DNA of 64,000 nucleotides from Candidatus Hydrogenedentota bacterium (GCA_029552745.1 JAKPDK010000152.1:248001-312000); one strand, 5' to 3'; positions 24,872 through 41,798 are shown, numbered from the stretch's first letter. Notes: a model not told the origin generated them from the sequence alone. Numbers and translations are program-made.

Positions 24872-25212
24872 CCAGTAACTTTGGCACTTTTTGTTATGTT
24901 GGATAAGGAATTGAAGAGAAAGTTTTCCACGACGGTCATTGAGAGAAAAGTACCGACGCGTGGCACGCTGAAGTACGCCTGAGCCATTTACGAACCCCTT
25001 GAACATTTGGGATTATTCGTTTTTACGTAGTACGTTCTATTACGCCGCGCCCCCGCCATGTCATTGCGAGGAGTGCCGTCAGGCACGACGTGGCAATCCC
25101 CTTAGGTGTTGGGTGGATAACCCCGGGGCGAAATTGGGCGCAACCTGTTGCGCCCCTACAGAAGATGAAGGGATTGCTTCGTCGCTTCGGGGACTCCGTT
25201 CCTGGCAATGAC
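24872..25212 (+). repeat. Long repeat family, copy A (about 340 bp)
   Basis: This element consists of a flank of about 190 bases and a palindromic core at 25060-25212. The core is bounded by GTCATTGCGAGGAG and its imperfect inverse. The whole unit recurs inverted at 30762-31097. In 24879-24913, 3 of 35 bases differ between copies. The core contains GCGCAAC/GTTGCGC. The flank end points to the rhodanese gene. No protein is encoded. Confidence 0.85.
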
Positions 25213-25234
25213 AAAAGTCCTAGGCAAGCACGGT

Positions 25235-25262
25235 GTAGGGGCGAAGCATCCTTCGCCCCTAC
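25235..25262. repeat. Perfect 12-bp stem hairpin
   Basis: GTAGGGGCGAAG and CTTCGCCCCTAC form a perfect stem with a 4-base loop. It lies between two copies of the repeat core. A related 20-base perfect palindrome is at 25466-25485. Neither is followed by a T-run, so they are parts of the repeat mosaic rather than terminators. Confidence 0.7.
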
Positions 25263-25319
25263 AGGGGACGGAAGGGAGGGGTTTTACCTGAGCCCGTTGG
25301 GATTTGTGCCCCCGCCGTT

Positions 25320-25456
25320 GTCATTGCGAGGAGTGCCGTTAGGCACGACGTGGCAATCCCCTGAGGATTTCGGGGATCACCATGCCCTGGCTTCTCTTGC
25401 GCTGCGCGGTTGAGGGGATTGCTTCGTCGCTTCGGGGACTCCGCTCCTCGCAATGA
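25320..25456 (+). repeat. Repeat core, copy C
   Basis: The left arm (GTCATTGCGAGGAGTGCCG) and right arm (ending CTCCTCGCAATGAC) match copy A, but the centre is unrelated to it. The flank is missing. The orientation is the same as copy A. Confidence 0.8.
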
Positions 25457-25622
25457 CAACGGGAAGGGCGAGGCATGCCTCGCCCATACGGGGAAAGCCG
25501 TGGGATACACCGAGAGGGAAGTTCTGCCAGGGACATAGGAGGGCGACCACGGGGACTCGCCCCTACAAGGGATAACAGGGAGGGGTTTCAACCAATCTTG
25601 TTAAGTTCAGTGTCCCGCGACT

Positions 25623-25754
25623 GTCATTGCGAGGAGCAATCCCCTTGGGTGTTGGGTGAATAACCCCCGGGCGAAATTGGGCGCAACATGTTGCGCCCCT
25701 ACAGAAGATGAAGGGATTGCTTCGTCGCTTCGGGGGACTCCGCTCCTCGCAATG
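25623..25754 (+). repeat. Repeat core, copy D with shortened left arm
   Basis: The centre matches copy A closely, including the GCGCAACATGTTGCGC palindrome, but the left arm has lost about 25 bases so that GCGAGGAG joins GCAATCCC directly. Between the repeats, 25213-25858 holds no supported gene; the open frames there follow the repeats. Confidence 0.8.
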
Positions 25755-25858
25755 TCAACCAAGGGCCTAAACCCCTGTCTTACCTCTTCGATACATCCCG
25801 AACGTTTGTGAGCTCATGCAACCGTATTAGGTTTCAACGCGGAATGGCAGGAGACCTC

Positions 25859-30761: not shown

Positions 30762-31097
30762 GTCATTGCGAGGAGCGAGTCCCCCGAAGCGACGAAGCAA
30801 TCCCTTCATCCTCTGTAGGGGCGCAACATGTTGCGCCCTATTTCGCCCTGGGGTTATCCACCTAACACCTAAGGGGATTGCCACGTCGCCCCTTCGGCAC
30901 TCCTCGCAATGACAGGGGGCGGGCCATAGCGTAATAGGACGGTAAAACAAGTAATCTTAAGTGGTCAAAGGGGTTCGTAAATAGTTCCAGCGTACCTCGG
31001 AAATGCCCTGCGTCGGTGCCTTTCTTTTAATGACCTTTATGCAACGTCCTCTATTCCATTCCTCATCCAACATAACAAAAGGTGCCAAAGGTACTGG
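30762..31097 (-). repeat. Long repeat family, copy B (inverted)
   Basis: This is the reverse complement counterpart of 24872-25212: core at 30762-30913, flank at 30914-31097. The flank end (CTTTGGCAC when read on the minus strand) points to the OPT-like transporter gene, 35 bases away. The homology covers the whole unit with scattered substitutions and small indels. Confidence 0.85.
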
Positions 31098-31131: not shown

Positions 31132-33105
31132 ATGATAAAAGAGACGCGTCTCCTCTTGCTCCAAGAAAGGACACGTTTGGGCGTATCACTTCGAAGTATA
31201 GTCATAGGTGTAATTTTGATACCTGTGACAACCATGTGGGTGTGTCTTGCCGAAATCATGTGGTATTCTGGGCAGCCCACGACCATCAGCGTTTTTTGCC
31301 ACGTCATTTTCATATTAGTCCTTCTCGTCCTCCTAAACTTAGTGATTAAAAAGTTCCGCCCGAGTTGGGCTCTTCAGCCGACAGAGTTCATGGTCATCTA
31401 CACCATGTTGTGCTTGGCAAGCTGCATCAGCGGACATGACATGGGGGAGATCCTAATCTCCATTCTTGGACATTTGGCTTTTTTTGCTCCGGTAGAAGGT
31501 CGTTATGGAGAGTTTAAGGATCTCGTCCCCGATTGGCTCGTGGTGAATGACCCGCAGGCAGTCCAAAGCGCATATATTGGGCAAGAGTCCGTGTTCAATC
31601 CGACGAACTTATTGCCGTGGTTGCGCCCTCTTGGATGGTGGTTCCTCTTTATCATCGCGTTGTGTGCAGTCATGTGGGGGCTTAATCTATTGTTCCGTCG
31701 TCAATGGGTGGAGAACGAGAAACTCGCTTACCCTGTGATACAGTTACCGATGTTGTTGACGACCGAAACAACGTCTCTCTTGAAGAACCGCTTGTTTTGG
31801 TCTGCTTTTGCTCTTGCAGGGACGATTGATTTGATCAACGGTCTGAACGTGCTCTACCCGATGTTGCCCAAAATCCCCATTGTTCAAATTGTGAATATTC
31901 AAAGTTTCTTTCCGGAAAGACCTTGGATAGATATGGGCTTTACATGGGTATCCTTCTATCCTTTTGCTATCGGGTTGTGCTTTTTCATGCCGTTAGATTT
32001 GGCTTTTTCATGTTGGTTCTTTTACTGGTTTTGGAAATTTCAGCGTGTTGCCGCCAGCTACATTGGTGTCCATGGCATGCCCGGTTTTCCGTTTGTTGAA
32101 GAACAGACCGCCGGCGGATATTACGCGATCGCCCTCATTGCCATCTGGATCACGCGCCATCATTTTGTTCGATGTGCCAAGTTGTTAATGGGCGATTCCA
32201 GTATCGATGCCACACCTTGGGAACGTGTTGAGGTTCGTCTTGCTGTGATTCTTATGGCGGTGGGTCTTACGTTCCTCGTGTGGTTCTTTCACACTGCAGG
32301 TATGCCCATCGGCATAATCTTGGTAGGCTTCACTTTGTATTTTCTCATTTCCATTGCCGTTACTCGCATGCGCGCCGAACTGGGACCTCCGGCCCACGAC
32401 TTGCATAACATAGGTCCTCAGAAACAAATCGTCCGCTTTATCGGTGCCGCCAATATGAACCGTCCCGTGCTGAATCCCAAATACCCCACTACGCTGGCTT
32501 TGTTTGGCTTTTGGAACTTTTTCAACCGTGCCTATCGGGGACACCCCATGCCCCACGGGATGGAGGCATTTCGGATAGCGGAACGTATGAAAATGGACAA
32601 TCTTCGCTATCTGATCGCCATGGGAGTTGCCATCGTTGTGGGCACCATCAGCGGGTTTTTCTCCATGTTGTGGATCTTCAACAAGTACGGCGCCTCTGCC
32701 CAAGTGATCGGCCCCAGTGAGTGGTTCGGTAGAGAAACATGGGACATGGTAAATATTTGGTTTACGGCGCCCGAAATTCATCAGATGCAACCGACTTATG
32801 CAATTGTCATTGGATTATTGACGGGCTTGGGACTCGCAGCCCTGAGAATGAACTTGAACTGGTGGCCCTTTCATCCTGTCGGGTATGCGGTAAGTGGGTC
32901 CTGGTCGATGGACCAACTCTGGATGTGCGTTTTCACCGCGTGGCTCATAAAAGCGTTACTTTTGCGTTATGGCGGCGCCAAAGCGTATAAACCTGCAATA
33001 CCGTTTTTTGTTGGACTCATGGTGGGCGACTTTGTGGTGGGAGGTTTTTGGCAACTCTATGGTATTGTAATGGAGACGACTGTGTACCATTTTTGGCCCT
33101 ACTAG
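31132..33105 (+). CDS. OPT-like membrane transporter (DUF6785 type), first
   Basis: This is a polytopic membrane protein of 657 residues with about 14 hydrophobic segments. It has the look of the DUF6785/DUF6784 group, distant relatives of oligopeptide transporters: an early LQPTEFMVIYTMLCLASCISGHDM segment, NEKLAYPVIQLP in a loop, and MRAELGPPAHDLH after a mid-protein helix. Substrates of this group are not known; peptides or metal chelates are guesses from the OPT superfamily. ATG 31132 has GAGAAAG upstream. It is the first gene of a three-gene unit; the next gene starts about 50-60 bases downstream. Confidence 0.8.
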   Translation: MIKETRLLLLQERTRLGVSLRSIVIGVILIPVTTMWVCLAEIMWYSGQPTTISVFCHVIFILVLLVLLNLVIKKFRPSWALQPTEFMVIYTMLCLASCISGHDMGEILISILGHLAFFAPVEGRYGEFKDLVPDWLVVNDPQAVQSAYIGQESVFNPTNLLPWLRPLGWWFLFIIALCAVMWGLNLLFRRQWVENEKLAYPVIQLPMLLTTETTSLLKNRLFWSAFALAGTIDLINGLNVLYPMLPKIPIVQIVNIQSFFPERPWIDMGFTWVSFYPFAIGLCFFMPLDLAFSCWFFYWFWKFQRVAASYIGVHGMPGFPFVEEQTAGGYYAIALIAIWITRHHFVRCAKLLMGDSSIDATPWERVEVRLAVILMAVGLTFLVWFFHTAGMPIGIILVGFTLYFLISIAVTRMRAELGPPAHDLHNIGPQKQIVRFIGAANMNRPVLNPKYPTTLALFGFWNFFNRAYRGHPMPHGMEAFRIAERMKMDNLRYLIAMGVAIVVGTISGFFSMLWIFNKYGASAQVIGPSEWFGRETWDMVNIWFTAPEIHQMQPTYAIVIGLLTGLGLAALRMNLNWWPFHPVGYAVSGSWSMDQLWMCVFTAWLIKALLLRYGGAKAYKPAIPFFVGLMVGDFVVGGFWQLYGIVMETTVYHFWPY

Positions 33106-33165
33106 CCAAAAAGAAATAATGTGTTGGGGTAGATTGAAATCGAAAACGATCAGAACGTGGGGAAA

Positions 33166-36100
33166 ATGAAAAAAGGTCTCTACATATTTCGGTGGTTAGC
33201 CATACTGGTTGTGGGAATTGCCCTGCAGCTGTATATTGCAAAATGGGCGACAGAGACAGAAAAGGACCCGGACCTCGCTGAAACCGCTCAATTTTCAAAA
33301 GAAATGTACCCCAAAATCGCCGCCCGTGTTACAGAAGAGGGTTTGCTGACCCATATCAAATCACTTTCCAGCATCCCCTCTCGGGTCACAGGTACAGAAG
33401 GTGCCGAACAAGCTGCCGCGTATATCATTAATCAGTTCCGAGGATTGGGAGTAGGGGAGCCCACCGTAGAAGAATTTCCCGTGCTGGTTCCAATCTTCTC
33501 GAAGGCAGAAGTTCGTACCCCGGGCGCCGTTTACCGACTACATCCCCTGTTTCCCAATGGTGTGTGTCCATCCGCCTTACCTCCCGAAGGACTGCCGACC
33601 CGTTTGGTGTATGCAAAGTTCGGTACCCTGTCCGACGTACAGGGGAAAGACCTTACCAATGCGACGGTTGTAGTTGAAACGGGCGCCCGAGAGCAGTGGC
33701 TCTATTTGGTCGACCTCGGCGCGCATGCCGTCATTTTTGTTGAAAGACAAAAACCGACGCGTTCGATGGAAATTACCACGCAGACCGGTTCTCATCAGAG
33801 CGTGCCTCGCTTTTGGATGAAAGCCGACGAAGCGAAACCGCTTCTCGAAAGGCTACAAAAAGGAGATATTCCAGGAACCCTGTTTTCCGACGCGCGTTGG
33901 GAAGAGCGCAAAGGCAAAAATATATGGGTAGAGATTCCGGGCACCAGCTCCGCACCCCATAATCGTGACGAATTCATCGTGTTGAGCGCTTATTATGACA
34001 GTACTTCCTTTGTTCCCGATTTGGCGCCCGGCGCAGAACAGGCGTGCAGCATCGCAGCATTACTAGAACTCGCCAAGATCATTCGGGATCACCCGTTTGA
34101 AAAGCGTGTGCGCCTATTGGCTTTAAGTGGGCATTTCCAAGGCTTGGAAGGCGCGAGAAGGTATGTTTGGGAACATGTGGGCCAGTATGAAGCTCCATTA
34201 CGCGATGTTTCACCGCAGAATCATGCCGCGTTTTTCTCGCTCGACCTTTCCTCGCGTTCCCGACGTGTTGGGTTGTTTTACGGCGGACACTTTTTCCAAC
34301 AACTTGCAAATAACCTCAAGCCACGTCTTTCGGATTTAGGAAGACGAGCAACTCAGTACGTGGCAGAAATTAGCGATTCGCTGGGACTACAAAAAGATTC
34401 GGTTTTTGTAGACACTATCAACCCTACTGTAGGGAAAGAATGGATCAATTATTTACCCACGCTTATGGCGCTCGACCACGAAGTGGCTTTACTGGCGGGT
34501 ATTCCAGCGCTTGCCTTCGTGACAACCGATGATACCCGAATCGACGCGGGCACCCCGAACGATACCGAGGTCGACATCAAATCGTTGGCAGACCAGACCC
34601 GATTGCTCGCTTGTTTGCTACCCAATGCCTTCAATGTCGAAGGGCGATACCTAAAACGCTCTTTACCCCGAAGCATATGCACAATAAAAGGGCGCGCCGT
34701 GTCATTCGACCCGAGAGAAGGCTATCTTCCCAACAAACCGCTAGCCGGAGGTATTGTCACTGCCAAAAGGCCGGGTGATGTGGTGCCGTTCTTTACGAGC
34801 GTCAACGTCCGCCTGCTTGCCCCTGTGAATGATAAAGGGGAGTTCGAATTCGTGGGGCTGGGTTACAAAGCGGAAGTGCCCTACCACATGTGTACCTTGG
34901 CTTTCGAACCATACAAAGTGGAGGACGGACGAATTACATGGGCTCCGGACTTTGGCGGTATGGGAAAGGAAAGCTATCCGTTAACCTTATTACCAGTCCA
35001 AAAGCAAATGGAGTTGATGTGTGTTGCCTTTGAATGTAAACCGCTCGAGATTTATAACTTGTTTGATCCCAGAAACTACAACTTTCTCATAAACCTCCAA
35101 CTCCTGGAAGCGGCAAGCAACTCGACACCCTCTGTCTACGGTACAACGATCGTGGACCGGACCTGGTTTTCTTACTTTGCTCCGACGGCAACTGTATTTG
35201 CCCCCGCAGAAACACGCCTCAAAATAATGGCAAGCGCGGGGCCTCTGAATAAAAGACTTATCTTCTTGAATACCTCTGAAACTCCACCCCAGGGAGAACG
35301 CTTTAATACGGGCACGGGTTTCTCAGTAGACGAGACGTCGGCGATACGACTTGCTTATTACCAAAGCGCTCAGGACATGTGGCGCCTGAACGATTCTCGG
35401 ATCCGCTTCTTCGGCGAGCATGGCATTAAGAATGACCGAGTAGACGAACTGCATAGCATGTCCCAAGAAGCTTTGAAAGAGGCAAAGGAACATCTTGAAA
35501 AGAAAGATTATCTCAATTTTTACGCGGCTGCCCGGCGTGCGCTAAGCCTGGAATCTTGGGCTTATCCCGATGTCATCGGCATGGCAAATGACACTGTCCG
35601 CGGTTTGATCTTCTATCTGGCTCTCTTACTGCCCTTCGCGTTCATTATGGAGCGATTGTTTCTGGCAGGACGACGCATCGAAACTCGGATTCTGGGAATC
35701 ATTCTGTTTTTTGTCCTGATGTTCTTCATTTTGAGATTTTCTCATCCGGGATTCCTTATCGTTTTGAGCCCCATGGTCGTGTTGCTAGGTTTTGTTGTGT
35801 CTGTGCTCTCCTTCACGATCATCATGATCGTCACGGGGAAACTCGAGAACCTTGTATCCAAACGAAAGACCGAACAACAGGGAGAGCATGAGACAGGGGT
35901 GCACAAGGTCAGCGGTTTTGCTGTCGCACTTGAAATGGGCATTGCCAACATGCGCAGACGCCGTGCGCGTACCGTACTCACGAGCATAACCCTGATTATA
36001 TTGACCTTCTCGGTACTGTCGTTTGTAAGTGTCCGTTCCCAAGTGAGACTACAACGTTACGTGTACAAAGAAGGGGCGACCCCCTATCCAGGGATATTGT

Positions 36101-37731
36101 TGCGCACGATGCGGTGGGAGCCGTTGCCCTTCGAAACGTATGCTTCGTTGCGCAATGAATTAAAGGATGTCGCTTGGGTGACTCCACGCCGCTGGTATTA
36201 CGGAGCCCTCGTGTTGAATCAAAGCGCCATTGATGTTCGCTGCGGCGACACTATCCGCACCCTCAAAGCCGTGGTAGGGCTCACCTCTCAAGAACAGCAG
36301 TTTTTGGACGTAAAGTCAGGACTTTTGGGGAACAGTCGTTGGCTCAGCGAGGAGAAACCCGGCGAAGACCCACCTCCCGAAATCTTGATACCTCTTAACA
36401 TGGCGGCGGATTTTTTAGGCATCAAGGCAAGCTCGGCTGAATCGAGCCAAGACACCGCTATTGAGTGGACTTCAGAGCAAAAAACGGACATCGCCAATGC
36501 CATTATAGGCAAAAAAGTGGAACTCTTGGGCAGGGCGTTCGAAGTCGTGGGCGTGTTCGACTGGGAACGAATGAACAAAGTGGTCGATATCGACGGCGAA
36601 GGCTTGACCCCTTACGACCCGTTCCAAATGGAAAAGAAGAATCAAGAAGAAGGCGTTCCTGACCCCGAAGAGATACAACGGTACATCCACCACTCGTTCA
36701 AAGACGTGGCTATCTTGCCCGAGCACGTGTTAGGTCAACTTGCCGGGGAAATACGGTCGCTGGCAATCCGTCCCTTCAACCCTGCAGACGTTGAGAATTT
36801 AGCCAAGAATCTTGTTAAACGCATGGATTACATTCTCTTTGCCAACGTAAACGGCCTACCTACGCTGCTCAGTAGTCGTCGAGCGACCAGTATTGCGGAA
36901 TACTGGAACCTTGCCATTCTCATGATCATCGCCGCGTTGATTGTGTTTAATACCATGTTGGGGTCTGTTTACGAGAGGACCAAAGAAATTGGTACGTATA
37001 CGGCTTTGGGTATCGCACCGTCTCATATTGCGTGGCTGTTCCTGGTAGAAGCCGCGGTGTTCTCGGTAATTGGAGTAATGGCTGGCTATGTTCTGGGGCA
37101 AACCATTTCGCGCGCCGTGCATGTTTTTGGATGGACGGCATTGAGCGCTCTGAACTTGAACTACAGCTCTCTGGCTGCCGTGGGCGCCTGTCTGGTGGTG
37201 ATGGCAATCGTGATGCTCTCTGCCGCATATCCTGCCCGTAAAGCCAGCGAGATCGGAGTACCCGACATTGATCGCCGATGGAAACTCCCCAAAACAAGAG
37301 AAGCCGTGATCACTCTTGATTTGCCCTTTACGGTTGCGCCGGAGGAAGCGCCAGGACTTGTGGCATTCCTGAAAGAATACCTAGATTCCCACGTAGATGT
37401 CTCGGTAGGAAGTTTTTATGTAGAAGAAATCTCCGCGGGTCCTCAGGTGGCAGAGAACGCGGGGACAGGCGTCAAGGGCCGTTTCTGGTTGACGCCTTTC
37501 GACCTCGGTGTGAGTCAATACACGACCTTCACATTACGAAAACTGCGCGACATGGACGTCTACGGCGTATGCGCCCGAATCGAGCGCCTGAGCGGCGATG
37601 CCAGTTCGTGGCGTCGCGCGAACAGTCATTTTATGACGGATATGCGCACGCAATTCCTCATTTGGCGTAATCTCACGCCCTCCGTGCGGGCTTCATATGT
37701 GGAGAGAGGAAAGGAATACGCACCGGCATGA
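33166..37731 (+). CDS. Pseudo-M28 peptidase fused to FtsX-type permease
   Basis: The protein has about 1521 residues; a GTG at 33157 would add three. After one N-terminal helix comes a PA-type and M28 aminopeptidase-like domain (about 40-480). Its zinc and catalytic positions are replaced: YYDS for HxD, GAEQA for GADDN, and SGHFQG for GAEE. It is thus probably inactive as a peptidase. A beta-rich region (480-800) follows, then three helices (about 812-895). An FtsX/MacB-like permease follows: first helix near 930, large extracytoplasmic domain to about 1240, three helices to about 1370 ending in AAYPARKASEI. The last 150 residues are soluble. No matching ATPase gene adjoins. It overlaps the next transporter by ATGA. 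Confidence 0.8.
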   Translation: MKKGLYIFRWLAILVVGIALQLYIAKWATETEKDPDLAETAQFSKEMYPKIAARVTEEGLLTHIKSLSSIPSRVTGTEGAEQAAAYIINQFRGLGVGEPTVEEFPVLVPIFSKAEVRTPGAVYRLHPLFPNGVCPSALPPEGLPTRLVYAKFGTLSDVQGKDLTNATVVVETGAREQWLYLVDLGAHAVIFVERQKPTRSMEITTQTGSHQSVPRFWMKADEAKPLLERLQKGDIPGTLFSDARWEERKGKNIWVEIPGTSSAPHNRDEFIVLSAYYDSTSFVPDLAPGAEQACSIAALLELAKIIRDHPFEKRVRLLALSGHFQGLEGARRYVWEHVGQYEAPLRDVSPQNHAAFFSLDLSSRSRRVGLFYGGHFFQQLANNLKPRLSDLGRRATQYVAEISDSLGLQKDSVFVDTINPTVGKEWINYLPTLMALDHEVALLAGIPALAFVTTDDTRIDAGTPNDTEVDIKSLADQTRLLACLLPNAFNVEGRYLKRSLPRSICTIKGRAVSFDPREGYLPNKPLAGGIVTAKRPGDVVPFFTSVNVRLLAPVNDKGEFEFVGLGYKAEVPYHMCTLAFEPYKVEDGRITWAPDFGGMGKESYPLTLLPVQKQMELMCVAFECKPLEIYNLFDPRNYNFLINLQLLEAASNSTPSVYGTTIVDRTWFSYFAPTATVFAPAETRLKIMASAGPLNKRLIFLNTSETPPQGERFNTGTGFSVDETSAIRLAYYQSAQDMWRLNDSRIRFFGEHGIKNDRVDELHSMSQEALKEAKEHLEKKDYLNFYAAARRALSLESWAYPDVIGMANDTVRGLIFYLALLLPFAFIMERLFLAGRRIETRILGIILFFVLMFFILRFSHPGFLIVLSPMVVLLGFVVSVLSFTIIMIVTGKLENLVSKRKTEQQGEHETGVHKVSGFAVALEMGIANMRRRRARTVLTSITLIILTFSVLSFVSVRSQVRLQRYVYKEGATPYPGILLRTMRWEPLPFETYASLRNELKDVAWVTPRRWYYGALVLNQSAIDVRCGDTIRTLKAVVGLTSQEQQFLDVKSGLLGNSRWLSEEKPGEDPPPEILIPLNMAADFLGIKASSAESSQDTAIEWTSEQKTDIANAIIGKKVELLGRAFEVVGVFDWERMNKVVDIDGEGLTPYDPFQMEKKNQEEGVPDPEEIQRYIHHSFKDVAILPEHVLGQLAGEIRSLAIRPFNPADVENLAKNLVKRMDYILFANVNGLPTLLSSRRATSIAEYWNLAILMIIAALIVFNTMLGSVYERTKEIGTYTALGIAPSHIAWLFLVEAAVFSVIGVMAGYVLGQTISRAVHVFGWTALSALNLNYSSLAAVGACLVVMAIVMLSAAYPARKASEIGVPDIDRRWKLPKTREAVITLDLPFTVAPEEAPGLVAFLKEYLDSHVDVSVGSFYVEEISAGPQVAENAGTGVKGRFWLTPFDLGVSQYTTFTLRKLRDMDVYGVCARIERLSGDASSWRRANSHFMTDMRTQFLIWRNLTPSVRASYVERGKEYAPA

Positions 37732-39806
37732 GCAACGAACCATTTGTTTTAGATCCCTCCGATCTTCGAGCGGAACCCTACGAAGAAGGGTTTTCCATCC
37801 GAACGATGATCGGTGCCGTCTTTGTGGCATTTGTGATGATGCCGGGAACTATCTTCCTGAGTTTGATTGCGGGCGCCGGTTTAGGACCAGCCGCCCAATG
37901 GGTAACGATTATTCTATTTACGGAAATCGCACGGCGTTCCTTCACCACGTTAAAACGCCAAGAGGTGTACATCCTATATTACATGGCTGCGGCATTGGCA
38001 ATGACCGGTGGGCCCTTCGGCGCGATGATCTTCAATCAATTCTTCGTTCAAAGCCAACAGGCAATTCAGCTGGGCATCGCTGATATGCTTCCTTCCTGGG
38101 TCGTTCCGTCCAGAACATCCGAAGCCATTGTGGCAAGAAATCTGTTTCATCCCGACTGGTACACCCCCATCATGCTGACTACTTTTCTATGGATCATGGG
38201 ACGCGCCTGTGCGCTTACAGTCGGCTACGGGCTTTTCCGCATCACGGTGGATGTGGAACGATTGCCTTTCCCGCTTGCTCCCATTGCAGCAGAAGGTGCC
38301 ACCGCCTTGGCGGAAACTACTGCCAAAAAAGAGACGTGGCGTTGGAACGTTTTCAGTGTGGGCGCTGCTATCGGTCTGATCTTCGGAGCCATTTACGTGG
38401 GAATTCCCGGATTTACGGGTGTTCTTTTTTCTCGACCACTCCAAATTATCCCTATCCCGTTTGTTGATTTAACCCAAACCACAGAGCAGCTCCTACCGGC
38501 TGCTCTAGCAGGAATCAGCATTGACGTAGGAGCATTTATCACGGGAATGGTTTTGCCCTTCCCGATGGTCGCTGGCGCGTTCTTGGCAGCAGTATTGAGT
38601 GCCCTTTTACTCAACCCCATTCTTCATCATTGGAACTTCTTCCCAACGTGGCATCGTGGGATGTCGCTGATTCCCACAAAAATCGCCGTTGACTTTGACT
38701 TCTGGATGAGCATCGGTATTGGCGCCTCATTGTGTGTCGCCTTTATCGGTTTTTATAACGTCTTTCAAAGCTTCACCCGTAAACGGGACAAGAATGGAGT
38801 CTTGCTCCCGCGCGGTAGCGCATTGACGGCTCCTCCGAAGGGAAGAGGCGATATGAAATTATACTGGTGTATCATCGTTTACTTTATTGCCAGCGTCAGT
38901 TATATTTCCCTTTGCAAGGCGTTGTTGAAGCAGGATTCGTTCCCTTGGGTAATGGTGCTTGTTTACGCTCTTTTTATTACCCCGGTCATCTCGTATGTCT
39001 CCGCTCGTATGATTGGCTTAACAGGCTCTCCTCTGGCGTTTCCATTTCTCCGCGAAGGCAGTATTATTCTATCAGGCTACAAAGGCGTGGATATCTGGTA
39101 TGCACCTCTGCCGCTGGCTGATTATGGTCTTTCCGCCCAGATGTTTCGCGAGCTGACTCTAACTCGCACGAAATTCTCCAGCCTGGTGAAGATCGAGCTT
39201 TTCATGTTGCCACTTGCGCTTGTTTGTAGCCTCTTATTTTGGGCTTTCTTTTGGCACATCGAGGCAATCCCTTCCGCTACGTATCCTTTCACAGCCAAAA
39301 TGTGGCCCCTTCAAGCGACTTACCAGTGCCTGTTCATGACCGCGACGCTCGGCGACAACACGACGCAAGGCAGCACGTCCACTACCGCGGACAAAAAGCC
39401 CGAAGAAATCGATTTGTTTTCCAAAGACAATAGCACCAAGAACCAATCTTCTTTAACAGAACCCGTGCGCAAAAATTTCCTGGCTCAAGCGATCAAACCC
39501 AAGCTTATTCTCGTCGGTATCACTATCGGGTTTGTGTTACGGTTTTTTACAAACTACTTGGGACTCTCACACTTCTTTTTCTATGGAATGATTGGAGGGC
39601 TAGGAGCTATTCCGAACGCTATTATCCCGATGTTTTTCGGTGCTTTGATTGGGAAAAGAGTTCTAGCAAAACGCTTCGGCGAAGAAACTTGGCGGAAATA
39701 TACTCCCGTTTTGGCAGCCGGGTACGCTTGCGGGGTAGGACTTATCGGCATGCTTGCTGTGGCGTTTGCCATGATCGCAAAGACGATTTCCTCGTTGCCC
39801 TACTGA
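37728..39806 (+). CDS. OPT-like membrane transporter, second
   Basis: This 692-residue polytopic protein has about 15 hydrophobic segments. It is related in plan to the first transporter but not a recent duplicate. Recognisable stretches include the N-terminal GAVFVAFVMMPGTIFLSLIAGAGLGPAAQWVTI, VERLPFPLAPIAAEGATALAE, and the repeated GGLGAIPNAIIPMFFG near the end. OPT family members use such Pro/Gly-rich reentrant parts. A charged cytoplasmic insert (KKPEEIDLFSKDNSTKNQ) interrupts the C-terminal half. Start at ATG 37728 within the permease stop makes coupled translation very likely. Confidence 0.8.
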   Translation: MSNEPFVLDPSDLRAEPYEEGFSIRTMIGAVFVAFVMMPGTIFLSLIAGAGLGPAAQWVTIILFTEIARRSFTTLKRQEVYILYYMAAALAMTGGPFGAMIFNQFFVQSQQAIQLGIADMLPSWVVPSRTSEAIVARNLFHPDWYTPIMLTTFLWIMGRACALTVGYGLFRITVDVERLPFPLAPIAAEGATALAETTAKKETWRWNVFSVGAAIGLIFGAIYVGIPGFTGVLFSRPLQIIPIPFVDLTQTTEQLLPAALAGISIDVGAFITGMVLPFPMVAGAFLAAVLSALLLNPILHHWNFFPTWHRGMSLIPTKIAVDFDFWMSIGIGASLCVAFIGFYNVFQSFTRKRDKNGVLLPRGSALTAPPKGRGDMKLYWCIIVYFIASVSYISLCKALLKQDSFPWVMVLVYALFITPVISYVSARMIGLTGSPLAFPFLREGSIILSGYKGVDIWYAPLPLADYGLSAQMFRELTLTRTKFSSLVKIELFMLPLALVCSLLFWAFFWHIEAIPSATYPFTAKMWPLQATYQCLFMTATLGDNTTQGSTSTTADKKPEEIDLFSKDNSTKNQSSLTEPVRKNFLAQAIKPKLILVGITIGFVLRFFTNYLGLSHFFFYGMIGGLGAIPNAIIPMFFGALIGKRVLAKRFGEETWRKYTPVLAAGYACGVGLIGMLAVAFAMIAKTISSLPY

Positions 39807-39818
39807 AAAATCGTGTTC

Positions 39819-40658
39819 CTATCTTAACTGTATTTCCATACCTTCTTGGGCAACCAAACAACCCGGGAACAGCCGTAAAGCCTGCCGGTGCACTGCTTCA
39901 AGAAAGGCATCCGTATGTGATGGATCATGGTGAAAAAGTGCAACACGTTTGACTTGAGCAGCAGAGGCTACCCTCAAAGCCTCTTGCCAAGTGGAATGCC
40001 CCCAACCCTTCTTACCTTCTACGTACTCTTCGTCCGTATACATTGCATCGTAAACAAGTAGGTCGGCGCCTCGTGCCAACTCTAGGACATTTTCATTTAT
40101 ATCGTCACCGAACCGTTCGGTGTCCGTTGCGTAAGAAAAAACCAAACCGTCATACTCAACCCGATATCCCAAACACTGCCCGGGATGATTCAACGAAAAC
40201 GTTCTAATAACAACGTCCTCAATAGAGAAATGAGAATTGGGGTTCAACTCTTGAAACTGTAGAGTGGCGCTCATGTGCGTCATGGGCACAGGGAAATGCG
40301 GGTCGCGCATTTGCCCCATTAGGTATTCTCCAAGAGAAACGGAATTGGGTCCTCTCGCGCCATAAAAAAACAATTGATTCCCAGCTACAAAAGCGGGTTC
40401 AAAAAAGGGCAATCCTTGGATGTGGTCCCAATGCAGATGTGAAAAAAATATGTGGGCAGTAAAAGGAGAGAAACCCATCAAGGCTTTCCCTAAATTACGA
40501 ATTCCGGTTCCGGCATCGAAAATGAATAATTGCCGTCCCACGCGCACCTCGACACAAGAAGTATTTCCCCCATATTTAAGGGTATCGGGTCCCGGGCACG
40601 GGATACTGCCTCGCACTCCCCAAAACCTAACAAAGAAATCACATTGAGTATGATTCAT
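39819..40658 (-). CDS. MBL-fold metallohydrolase
   Basis: The 279 residues carry the family opening RFWGVRGSIPCPGPDTLKYGGNTSC, the metal motif SHLHWDHIQG, His in LNHPGQCLGYR, Asp in YATDTERFGDD and a C-terminal FHHDPSHTD. It is a cytoplasmic metallo-beta-lactamase-fold hydrolase in the group related to tRNase Z and class II cyclic-nucleotide phosphodiesterases. The substrate cannot be told from sequence. It lies 12 bases after mltG and is probably cotranscribed. Confidence 0.9.
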   Translation of the reverse strand: MNHTQCDFFVRFWGVRGSIPCPGPDTLKYGGNTSCVEVRVGRQLFIFDAGTGIRNLGKALMGFSPFTAHIFFSHLHWDHIQGLPFFEPAFVAGNQLFFYGARGPNSVSLGEYLMGQMRDPHFPVPMTHMSATLQFQELNPNSHFSIEDVVIRTFSLNHPGQCLGYRVEYDGLVFSYATDTERFGDDINENVLELARGADLLVYDAMYTDEEYVEGKKGWGHSTWQEALRVASAAQVKRVALFHHDPSHTDAFLEAVHRQALRLFPGCLVAQEGMEIQLR

Positions 40659-40670
40659 AAGAGCCTGTGC

Positions 40671-41798
40671 TCACTGAACTTCAGGGGGATCCCCCGAGGT
40701 TTGTCTCTCAGCTTCTAGACGCTGTGGCGCTATGAGACGTCTGAACCGCGCCACTGCACGGTTGTGTTCTGCAAGGGTCTTGGAAAAGGTATGAGTCCGA
40801 CCGTCCGCATTTGAAACGAAATAAAGATATTCCACATCTGCTGGTGAAAAAGCCGCCCGCAATGAAGCCAAACCAGGATTACAAATGGGTGTGGGGGGGA
40901 GCCCCTGGCGGCGATAGGTGTTGTACTCCGAGTCTATTTGTTTGTCGGCGTCTAGCAATCGTTGACCATACTTTTTTAAGGCATATTGTAACGTGCTATC
41001 AAGATCCAATGTCATTTTTTGTTTCAATCGGTTGTAAATCACCGCCGCTACCAAAGGCCTTTCCGAATCAACTTTCGTCTCTTCTTCAATCAACGAGGCA
41101 ATCGTTACAAGCTTCAACTTGTCAAAACCTTCTGGGGTAACAAGCTCAGCGGTCAAACTTAAATATCTTCTTTCAAATTCTTCCACCATTTTCTCAACGG
41201 CATCTCGCGGAGTCGGTTTTTTGTCAAAAAAATAGGTGCTGGGGAAGAGAAATCCCTCCAAAGTCTTGGCATCAATGCCCAATTTCTGAATCAAGTTTTG
41301 GTCAGATACCACTTCCAGAAAGGCTTGAGGCTCATCAAAAAGCGTTGCCATCTGGGCAATTGTCAACCCCTCTGGTACACGGAGCTTCAATTCTTCTGGA
41401 ATCTCATCAGAAGTTAACGGCACGTTAGGGCCCTCTTTCAACAAGGTCAAGATATCTGAAAGAGAAGCGTTTTTAGATATGTCATACCGACCGTATTTGA
41501 TTACTCCACCAGACTGGTCCCATTTCAGTGCAAGACGAAACATGAATTCGTGTTTTATGAGGCCTTTTTCAACCAAGATTCGCGCGACATCCTTGCCTTT
41601 GCTACCTTTTGGGATCTCCACACGCACGCTGTCGGCCGTAGAGACGGACTCGGGCGATGATTTGGTTGCCAAATAAGCCAGAACCCCTGCCCAAAATGCT
41701 GAAACTAGGCCTAAAACTAACAAAGACCACAGCGTCCCAATAATAATCCGGCCACGCCTTGTACCTTGTAGTCTTTTCAAGTCATCACATTCAACCAT
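40671..41798 (-). CDS. mltG: Endolytic murein transglycosylase MltG
   Basis: MltG cuts nascent peptidoglycan strands at the membrane. The 375 residues have one N-terminal transmembrane helix (about 20-42), a LysM-like part (RVEIPKGSKGKDVARILVEKGLI) and the YceG domain with the catalytic Glu in TIASLIEEET and the signature AAVIYNRL. The conserved LPPTPICNPGLASLRAAFSP segment near the C-terminus is present. The last 25 residues after the domain are extra. ruvX ends 5 bases upstream. Confidence 0.95.
   Translation of the reverse strand: MVECDDLKRLQGTRRGRIIIGTLWSLLVLGLVSAFWAGVLAYLATKSSPESVSTADSVRVEIPKGSKGKDVARILVEKGLIKHEFMFRLALKWDQSGGVIKYGRYDISKNASLSDILTLLKEGPNVPLTSDEIPEELKLRVPEGLTIAQMATLFDEPQAFLEVVSDQNLIQKLGIDAKTLEGFLFPSTYFFDKKPTPRDAVEKMVEEFERRYLSLTAELVTPEGFDKLKLVTIASLIEEETKVDSERPLVAAVIYNRLKQKMTLDLDSTLQYALKKYGQRLLDADKQIDSEYNTYRRQGLPPTPICNPGLASLRAAFSPADVEYLYFVSNADGRTHTFSKTLAEHNRAVARFRRLIAPQRLEAERQTSGDPPEVQ

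Follow-up and report, generated by a model that had tools for sequence, protein, structure and literature searches.

OPT transporters are elsewhere secondary, ion-coupled carriers that need no ATPase, and members of the family carry peptides and metal chelates; we know of no described system that combines OPT-fold proteins with an ABC ATPase. Sharing of one module by many membrane partners is familiar from other machineries, in that one TonB-ExbBD serves many receptors and one group II ECF module serves many S components. Among type VII ABC transporters, YbbAP-TesA is a case in which the transporter is joined to a hydrolase (PMC12646458). Here, we analyzed a stretch of 64,000 nucleotides from a Candidatus Hydrogenedentota genome (the window), which holds a cassette of three genes, all on the + strand, in the order OPT1, FUS, and OPT3. 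An earlier note on this DNA had proposed that two OPT-like proteins stand on either side of a fusion of a dead peptidase with an FtsX permease, all in one direction, and that this is not a known system; the open reading frames, the Pfam matches, and the fold of OPT3 bear out the first point, and a literature search, which gave no prior description, agrees with the second.

RESULTS

A cassette with conserved gene order

The cassette consists of the following features, the last of which is the ATGA overlap that had been noticed before.

31132..33105, + strand: OPT1, a DUF6785 + DUF6784 membrane protein of 657 aa
33157..37731, + strand: FUS, a pseudo-M28/FtsX fusion of 1524 aa (from the ORF, Pfam, and models)
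37728..39806, + strand: OPT3, a divergent OPT-fold transporter-like protein of 692 aa (from an OPT search and a fold match)
37728..37731, + strand: ATGA overlap of the FUS stop and the OPT3 start (from ORF coordinates)

The earlier note had suggested looking for the same gene order in other genomes, and the order OPT1-FUS-OPT3 is indeed kept in related Hydrogenedentota. Within the same family, it is complete in genera G010, G017, G008, and G005, whereas the contigs of G007 and G014 are broken; members of three other families (G030, G032, and G058) have a five-gene operon, OPT1-FUS-OPT3-FXS-ATPase. Because gene order is conserved, the cassette is not a chance arrangement. The cassette on L067 (JAACEL010000080.1) has a FUS that is 66% identical to that of the window. 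Scans for promoters and terminators gave matches no commoner than chance.

Downstream of the cassette, at 39819-41798, the window carries convergent MBL-fold and YceG/MltG-like genes, and genes of both families also follow the cassette of G005 (L036), so that the neighborhood looks syntenic across genera. Palindromic repeat elements with the ends GTCATTGCGAGGAG lie at 25060-25756 and 30762-30913 (7 matches to the ends compared to 0.03 expected); they are MITE- or REP-like, and one of them is located between divergent genes upstream of OPT1.

FUS joins a pseudo-peptidase to an FtsX-type half-permease

FUS is laid out as an N-terminal TM helix, a pseudo-M28 domain with a PA-type insert, a beta-rich region, TM helices, a MacB/FtsX-type half-permease, and a C-terminal domain. 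Its start is a GTG at 33157, but translation may in fact begin at the ATG at 33166, the position at which most relatives start. The main parts are as follows.

33316..34611, + strand: pseudo-M28 domain with PA-type insert, residues ~54-485 (model pLDDT 89, fold matches)
33991..34044, + strand: degenerate M28 metal-site motif, residues 279-296 (YYDS...APGAEQA), from 79 homologues
34132..34134, + strand: His326, which occupies the catalytic Glu position of M28 and is the same in 79/79 homologues
35971..36567, + strand: FtsX TM1 and MacB_PCD-like extracytoplasmic region (PF12704, E 0.0057, below cutoff)
36913..37251, + strand: FtsX permease C-terminal domain with three TM helices (PF02687; relatives YtrF, MacB, and LolC)

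Pfam matches Peptidase_M28 over residues 255-400 (7.1e-10) and FtsX (PF02687) over residues 1253-1365 (2.6e-15; 57 bits compared to a cutoff of 25.5). A model of residues 40-960 (pLDDT 89) contains an M28 fold, the PA-type insert, beta-rich domains, TM helices, and the beginning of FtsX. The best PDB folds for the pseudo-M28 domain are the M28 aminopeptidases 2ek8 and 6hc6 and the transferrin receptor, the insert being of the kind found in bacterial aminopeptidases, the transferrin receptor, and GCPII, and the nearest PDB relatives of the FtsX part are YtrF, MacB, and LolC, with LolF also among its FtsX relatives. Across 79 homologues, the window's FUS included, the zinc ligands and catalytic Glu of M28 are not preserved, in line with the previous description of a dead peptidase: the catalytic Glu is replaced by His (H326) in all 79, the first ligand His by Tyr in 61, and the last ligand His is kept in 9, with D281, G292, A293, and H326 invariant throughout (79/79). 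Judged by these residues, FUS is a pseudo-peptidase, and its pocket has been kept for a purpose that is not cleavage; by its domain content, FUS makes up half of an ABC transporter of type VII (MacB/LolCDE/FtsEX-like). In the FUS of G005 (L036:9985-14922; 1645 aa), the region of the FtsX ectodomain is enlarged by a sizeable insert or duplication.

The ATPase lies at a second locus

FXS, which stands beside the ATPase in the five-gene operon, is a minimal FtsX half-permease of ~212 aa that is almost without a periplasmic domain. In the window's own family, the pair is not linked to the cassette; in the window's genome (G000, with the window at C23:248001-312000), both genes are found ~267 kb from the cassette.

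G000 C23:10644-11282: FXS, second locus
G000 C23:9840-10610 (= L045:3841-4611): LolD-like ATPase, second locus (ABC_tran 1.2e-33)

Walker A, signature, Walker B, and H-loop are intact in this ATPase (GPSGSGKST / LSGGQQQR / ILADEP), which shares 66-71% identity with its counterpart in the G032 operon, the corresponding value for an unrelated ATPase of G007 being 48%. The cassette had been described as an ABC permease without an ATPase; that view does not hold for the genome as a whole, as other families and phyla encode FXS and an intact LolD-like ATPase in the same operon and this genome encodes them at a second locus. Linkage in other genomes suggests that this ATPase be assigned to FUS. Upstream of the FXS and ATPase genes at the second locus are genes for PqqD-like and X310 proteins, and downstream are those for a membrane protein and an HlyD adaptor. 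Loci L053 and L056 (from G012 and G040) carry FXS followed by two ATPase genes, which suggests a divergent subtype.

OPT1 and OPT3

OPT1 is a full-length member of the DUF6785 and DUF6784 families, both domains scoring above the Pfam cutoff (PF20581, 5.5e-139, 464 bits; PF20580, 9.6e-33, 113 bits). OPT3 alone gave no Pfam match; it is the only match to OPT (PF03169) in the window's genome, at 24.5 bits and thus below the cutoff of 25.8, and 7 of 43 OPT3 relatives match OPT (best 1.3e-6). Searched against the PDB, its predicted structure (pLDDT 84) returned the OPT transporter YS1 from barley (7wsr and 7wst) as the only significant match (E 2.1e-9 and 3.1e-9; next 0.066), with TM scores of 0.59/0.67. 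The profile comparison of OPT1 and OPT3 scored 27% or 95% depending on direction, with profiles built from relatives and the window's own sequences apparently left out, and 40% in another run, compared to <0.2% for controls; the alignment is collinear from end to end despite the direction-dependent score. Because of this end-to-end alignment, with controls near zero, we conclude that OPT1 and OPT3 are probably both OPT-superfamily proteins. No NCBIfam model covers OPT1 or OPT3, and the literature search found no mention of DUF6785 or DUF6784.

Distribution, co-occurrence, and copy number

A search of genome contigs with the single FUS sequence found no relatives; an alignment-based search gave 360, the best 80 of which come from Hydrogenedentota, Armatimonadota, Latescibacterota, Omnitrophota, Gemmatimonadota, Zixibacteria, Lentisphaerae, and others. 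The system spans about a dozen little-cultured bacterial phyla. Locus scans, for which the profiles used in other phyla were built from relatives (the window's own sequences apparently left out), placed OPT3 directly 3' of FUS in 47 of the 66 loci, from many phyla, that extend 1.5 kb or more beyond it, FXS and the ATPase within the FUS locus in 18 of the 57 with enough flank, and OPT1 within it in 15 of 46. Armatimonadota and some other lineages have the order FUS-OPT3-X325-PqqD-FXS-ATPase, and in other lineages X325-PqqD-FXS-ATPase stands apart from FUS. FUS-OPT3-FXS-ATPase is also present in a Chthonomonas genome (L100), a member of the Armatimonadota.

The PqqD-like protein (PF05402, 8.8e-12) adjoins FXS in many phyla and at the second locus of the window's genome; no RiPP enzymes were recognized alongside examples of this PqqD/RRE-like protein (L074:17592-18008 and L045:5286-5666). 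Directly upstream of its gene lies that of X325/X310, a conserved protein of ~310-370 aa with no Pfam match (for example, L074:16613-17590 and L049:3083-4276). PqqD occurs in 5 of the 9 FUS-bearing genomes of the phylum, and PqqD and X325 were rejected as core parts since they are absent from several FUS genomes.

Among the 48 genomes of the phylum that are at least 85% complete, 9 contain FUS. FXS scores above 270 bits in exactly these 9 (next score, at most 92), DUF6785 is present in exactly the same 9, and OPT3 is present in 8, the locus of the remaining one (G007) being cut off by the end of its contig. The nominal odds of this 9-of-48 match, 6e-10, ignore relatedness and are overstated because co-occurrence is partly shared ancestry, so that they should be read only as "not chance." Of 17 less complete genomes, all but two fit this pattern: these are G013 (80% complete), where FXS and DUF6785 are present and FUS was not detected, and G040, which has FXS-like and ATPase genes and neither FUS nor DUF6785. 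In other phyla, exactly one FXS was found in 27/27 FUS genomes. The earlier note had named a fusion gene without either transporter as evidence against the cassette, and this was essentially not encountered there: DUF6785 is present in 41/41 FUS genomes, and OPT3 is encoded elsewhere in 15 of the 16 genomes that lack it beside FUS.

Copy numbers differ widely. FUS occurs once or twice per genome where counted, and those with two (G008, G078, and G087) still have one FXS; OPT3 gives 1 to 6 matches per genome. DUF6785 is present in four copies in the window's genome, OPT1 among them, in 1 to 6 copies in the nine FUS-bearing genomes of the phylum, and in 1 to at least 28 copies in other phyla. 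These copies are mostly away from FUS, and no recurring neighbor of the other copies was found, their partners being diverse (no family in more than 4/70; 20 regions). What stands of the cassette as first described is a conserved gene set, but not OPT1 as its fixed partner, which belongs to a multicopy family.

DISCUSSION

We propose that a single-copy type VII ABC core of FUS, FXS, and the ATPase, coupled to OPT3, is common to the multicopy DUF6785 proteins, a proposal whose chances of being right or wrong we judge to be evenly balanced. The cassette would then supply the inner-membrane portion of a larger system that has no published description, with FUS, FXS, and the ATPase forming an asymmetric type VII ABC core. 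ATP hydrolysis under FUS and FXS would move or gate the large periplasmic pseudo-peptidase domain by mechanotransmission; OPT3 would be the constant partner and the DUF6785 proteins exchangeable clients, both docking on the core, such that one energized hub could serve many OPT-fold membrane proteins. The dead M28 pocket, with its invariant Asp and His, would most likely bind a peptide or protein terminus of a substrate or partner and leave it uncut; the ancestry of OPT and M28 proteins points, as a guess, to peptides or similar ligands. These genomes establish co-occurrence and architecture, whereas the coupling of the core to the OPT-fold proteins, and a complex between them, are what we infer. 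The ladder of copy numbers, from one FXS through one or two FUS and few OPT3 to as many as dozens of DUF6785 proteins, is what a shared hub would give. Weighing against the proposal are the ATPase-independent, secondary mode of OPT transporters elsewhere, the part of the co-occurrence that is due to shared ancestry, and the two genomes G040 and G013, in which FXS was found but FUS was not. More tentatively, and with somewhat more doubt than belief, we suggest that such an ATP-driven type VII hub with a pseudo-peptidase ectodomain might power or load the OPT-fold family, making OPT-fold transport ATP-coupled.

The same core could also be a LolCDE/YbbAP-type extraction machine that pulls a lipid- or peptide-linked molecule from the inner membrane, with the OPT-fold proteins as flippases or clients. 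Such a role would suit the FtsX relatives of FUS, which include LolC, LolF, MacB, and YtrF, the HlyD-type adaptor gene at the second locus of the window's genome, and the precedent of YbbAP-TesA (PMC12646458). Yet that HlyD gene is seen only in the second locus of the window's own family, and the loci have no recurring LolA- or lipoprotein-like partner. We also know of no case of the OPT fold acting as a flippase, and we regard extraction as unlikely.

A peptide uptake and sensing cassette, with OPT1 and OPT3 acting as ordinary secondary importers and FUS as a passive receptor that has no need of an ATPase, would be along the lines of the earlier note, which suggested that the cassette may bind or route peptides. 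In its favor, OPT3 has an OPT fold, OPT relatives carry peptides and metal chelates, and a pseudo-M28 domain could plausibly act as a receptor for peptides or proteins, as the same-fold transferrin receptor 1 illustrates. However, FXS and the ATPase track FUS in all genomes tested except two of low completeness, which indicates that energy input is part of the system, and the DUF6785 proteins are multicopy and mostly distant from FUS; this explanation thus appears quite unlikely to us. That the genes are fellow travelers, co-occurring as an inherited common gene set with no joint function, we hold to be improbable. Related genomes are not independent, and X325 and PqqD are missing from some lineages, as such inheritance would allow, but the presence of the genes is patchy inside one family and order and always joint, and they are co-retained whether linked, as in some phyla, or unlinked, as in others. 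RiPP-like export or maturation, with the PqqD/RRE-like protein bringing a precursor, the ABC core exporting it, and the pseudo-M28 domain binding it, draws on the PqqD-like gene directly beside FXS in many phyla and at the window genome's own second locus, but is highly improbable given that 4 of the 9 FUS-bearing genomes of the phylum lack this gene and that a non-systematic look recognized no radical SAM, cyclodehydratase, or precursor gene.

With the shared core as the preferred reading, the apparent oddity of a permease without an ATPase becomes a testable multigene system, and the DUF6785 and DUF6784 families, which reach dozens of copies in certain genomes, receive a first functional context. 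OPT1 is a full-length member of these families, whose function is without description and which are here multicopy and tied to FUS, FXS, and OPT3. OPT3 resembles the OPT/YSL transporters, such as barley YS1, in its predicted fold, and differs from them in falling under the Pfam OPT cutoff and in its obligate association with an ABC core. FUS has an M28 fold and a PA-type insert, as do the M28 peptidases and transferrin receptor 1, and like the latter, itself a pseudo-peptidase, it is noncatalytic; unlike both, it is fused to an ABC half-permease and carries an invariant His in place of the catalytic Glu. With the type VII ABC transporters (MacB, LolCDE, FtsEX, YtrF, and YbbAP), it shares the FtsX permease domain, a LolD-like ATPase partner, and the split layout of TM1, extracytoplasmic domain, and TM2-4, whereas the pseudo-M28/PA ectodomain and extra TM helices of the FUS half, the minimal FXS half, the often unlinked ATPase, and the tie to OPT-fold proteins set the system apart. 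To TonB-ExbBD and the group II ECF modules there is no homology, and the coupling proposed here is putative; the analogy lies in a single energizing core with many client membrane proteins.
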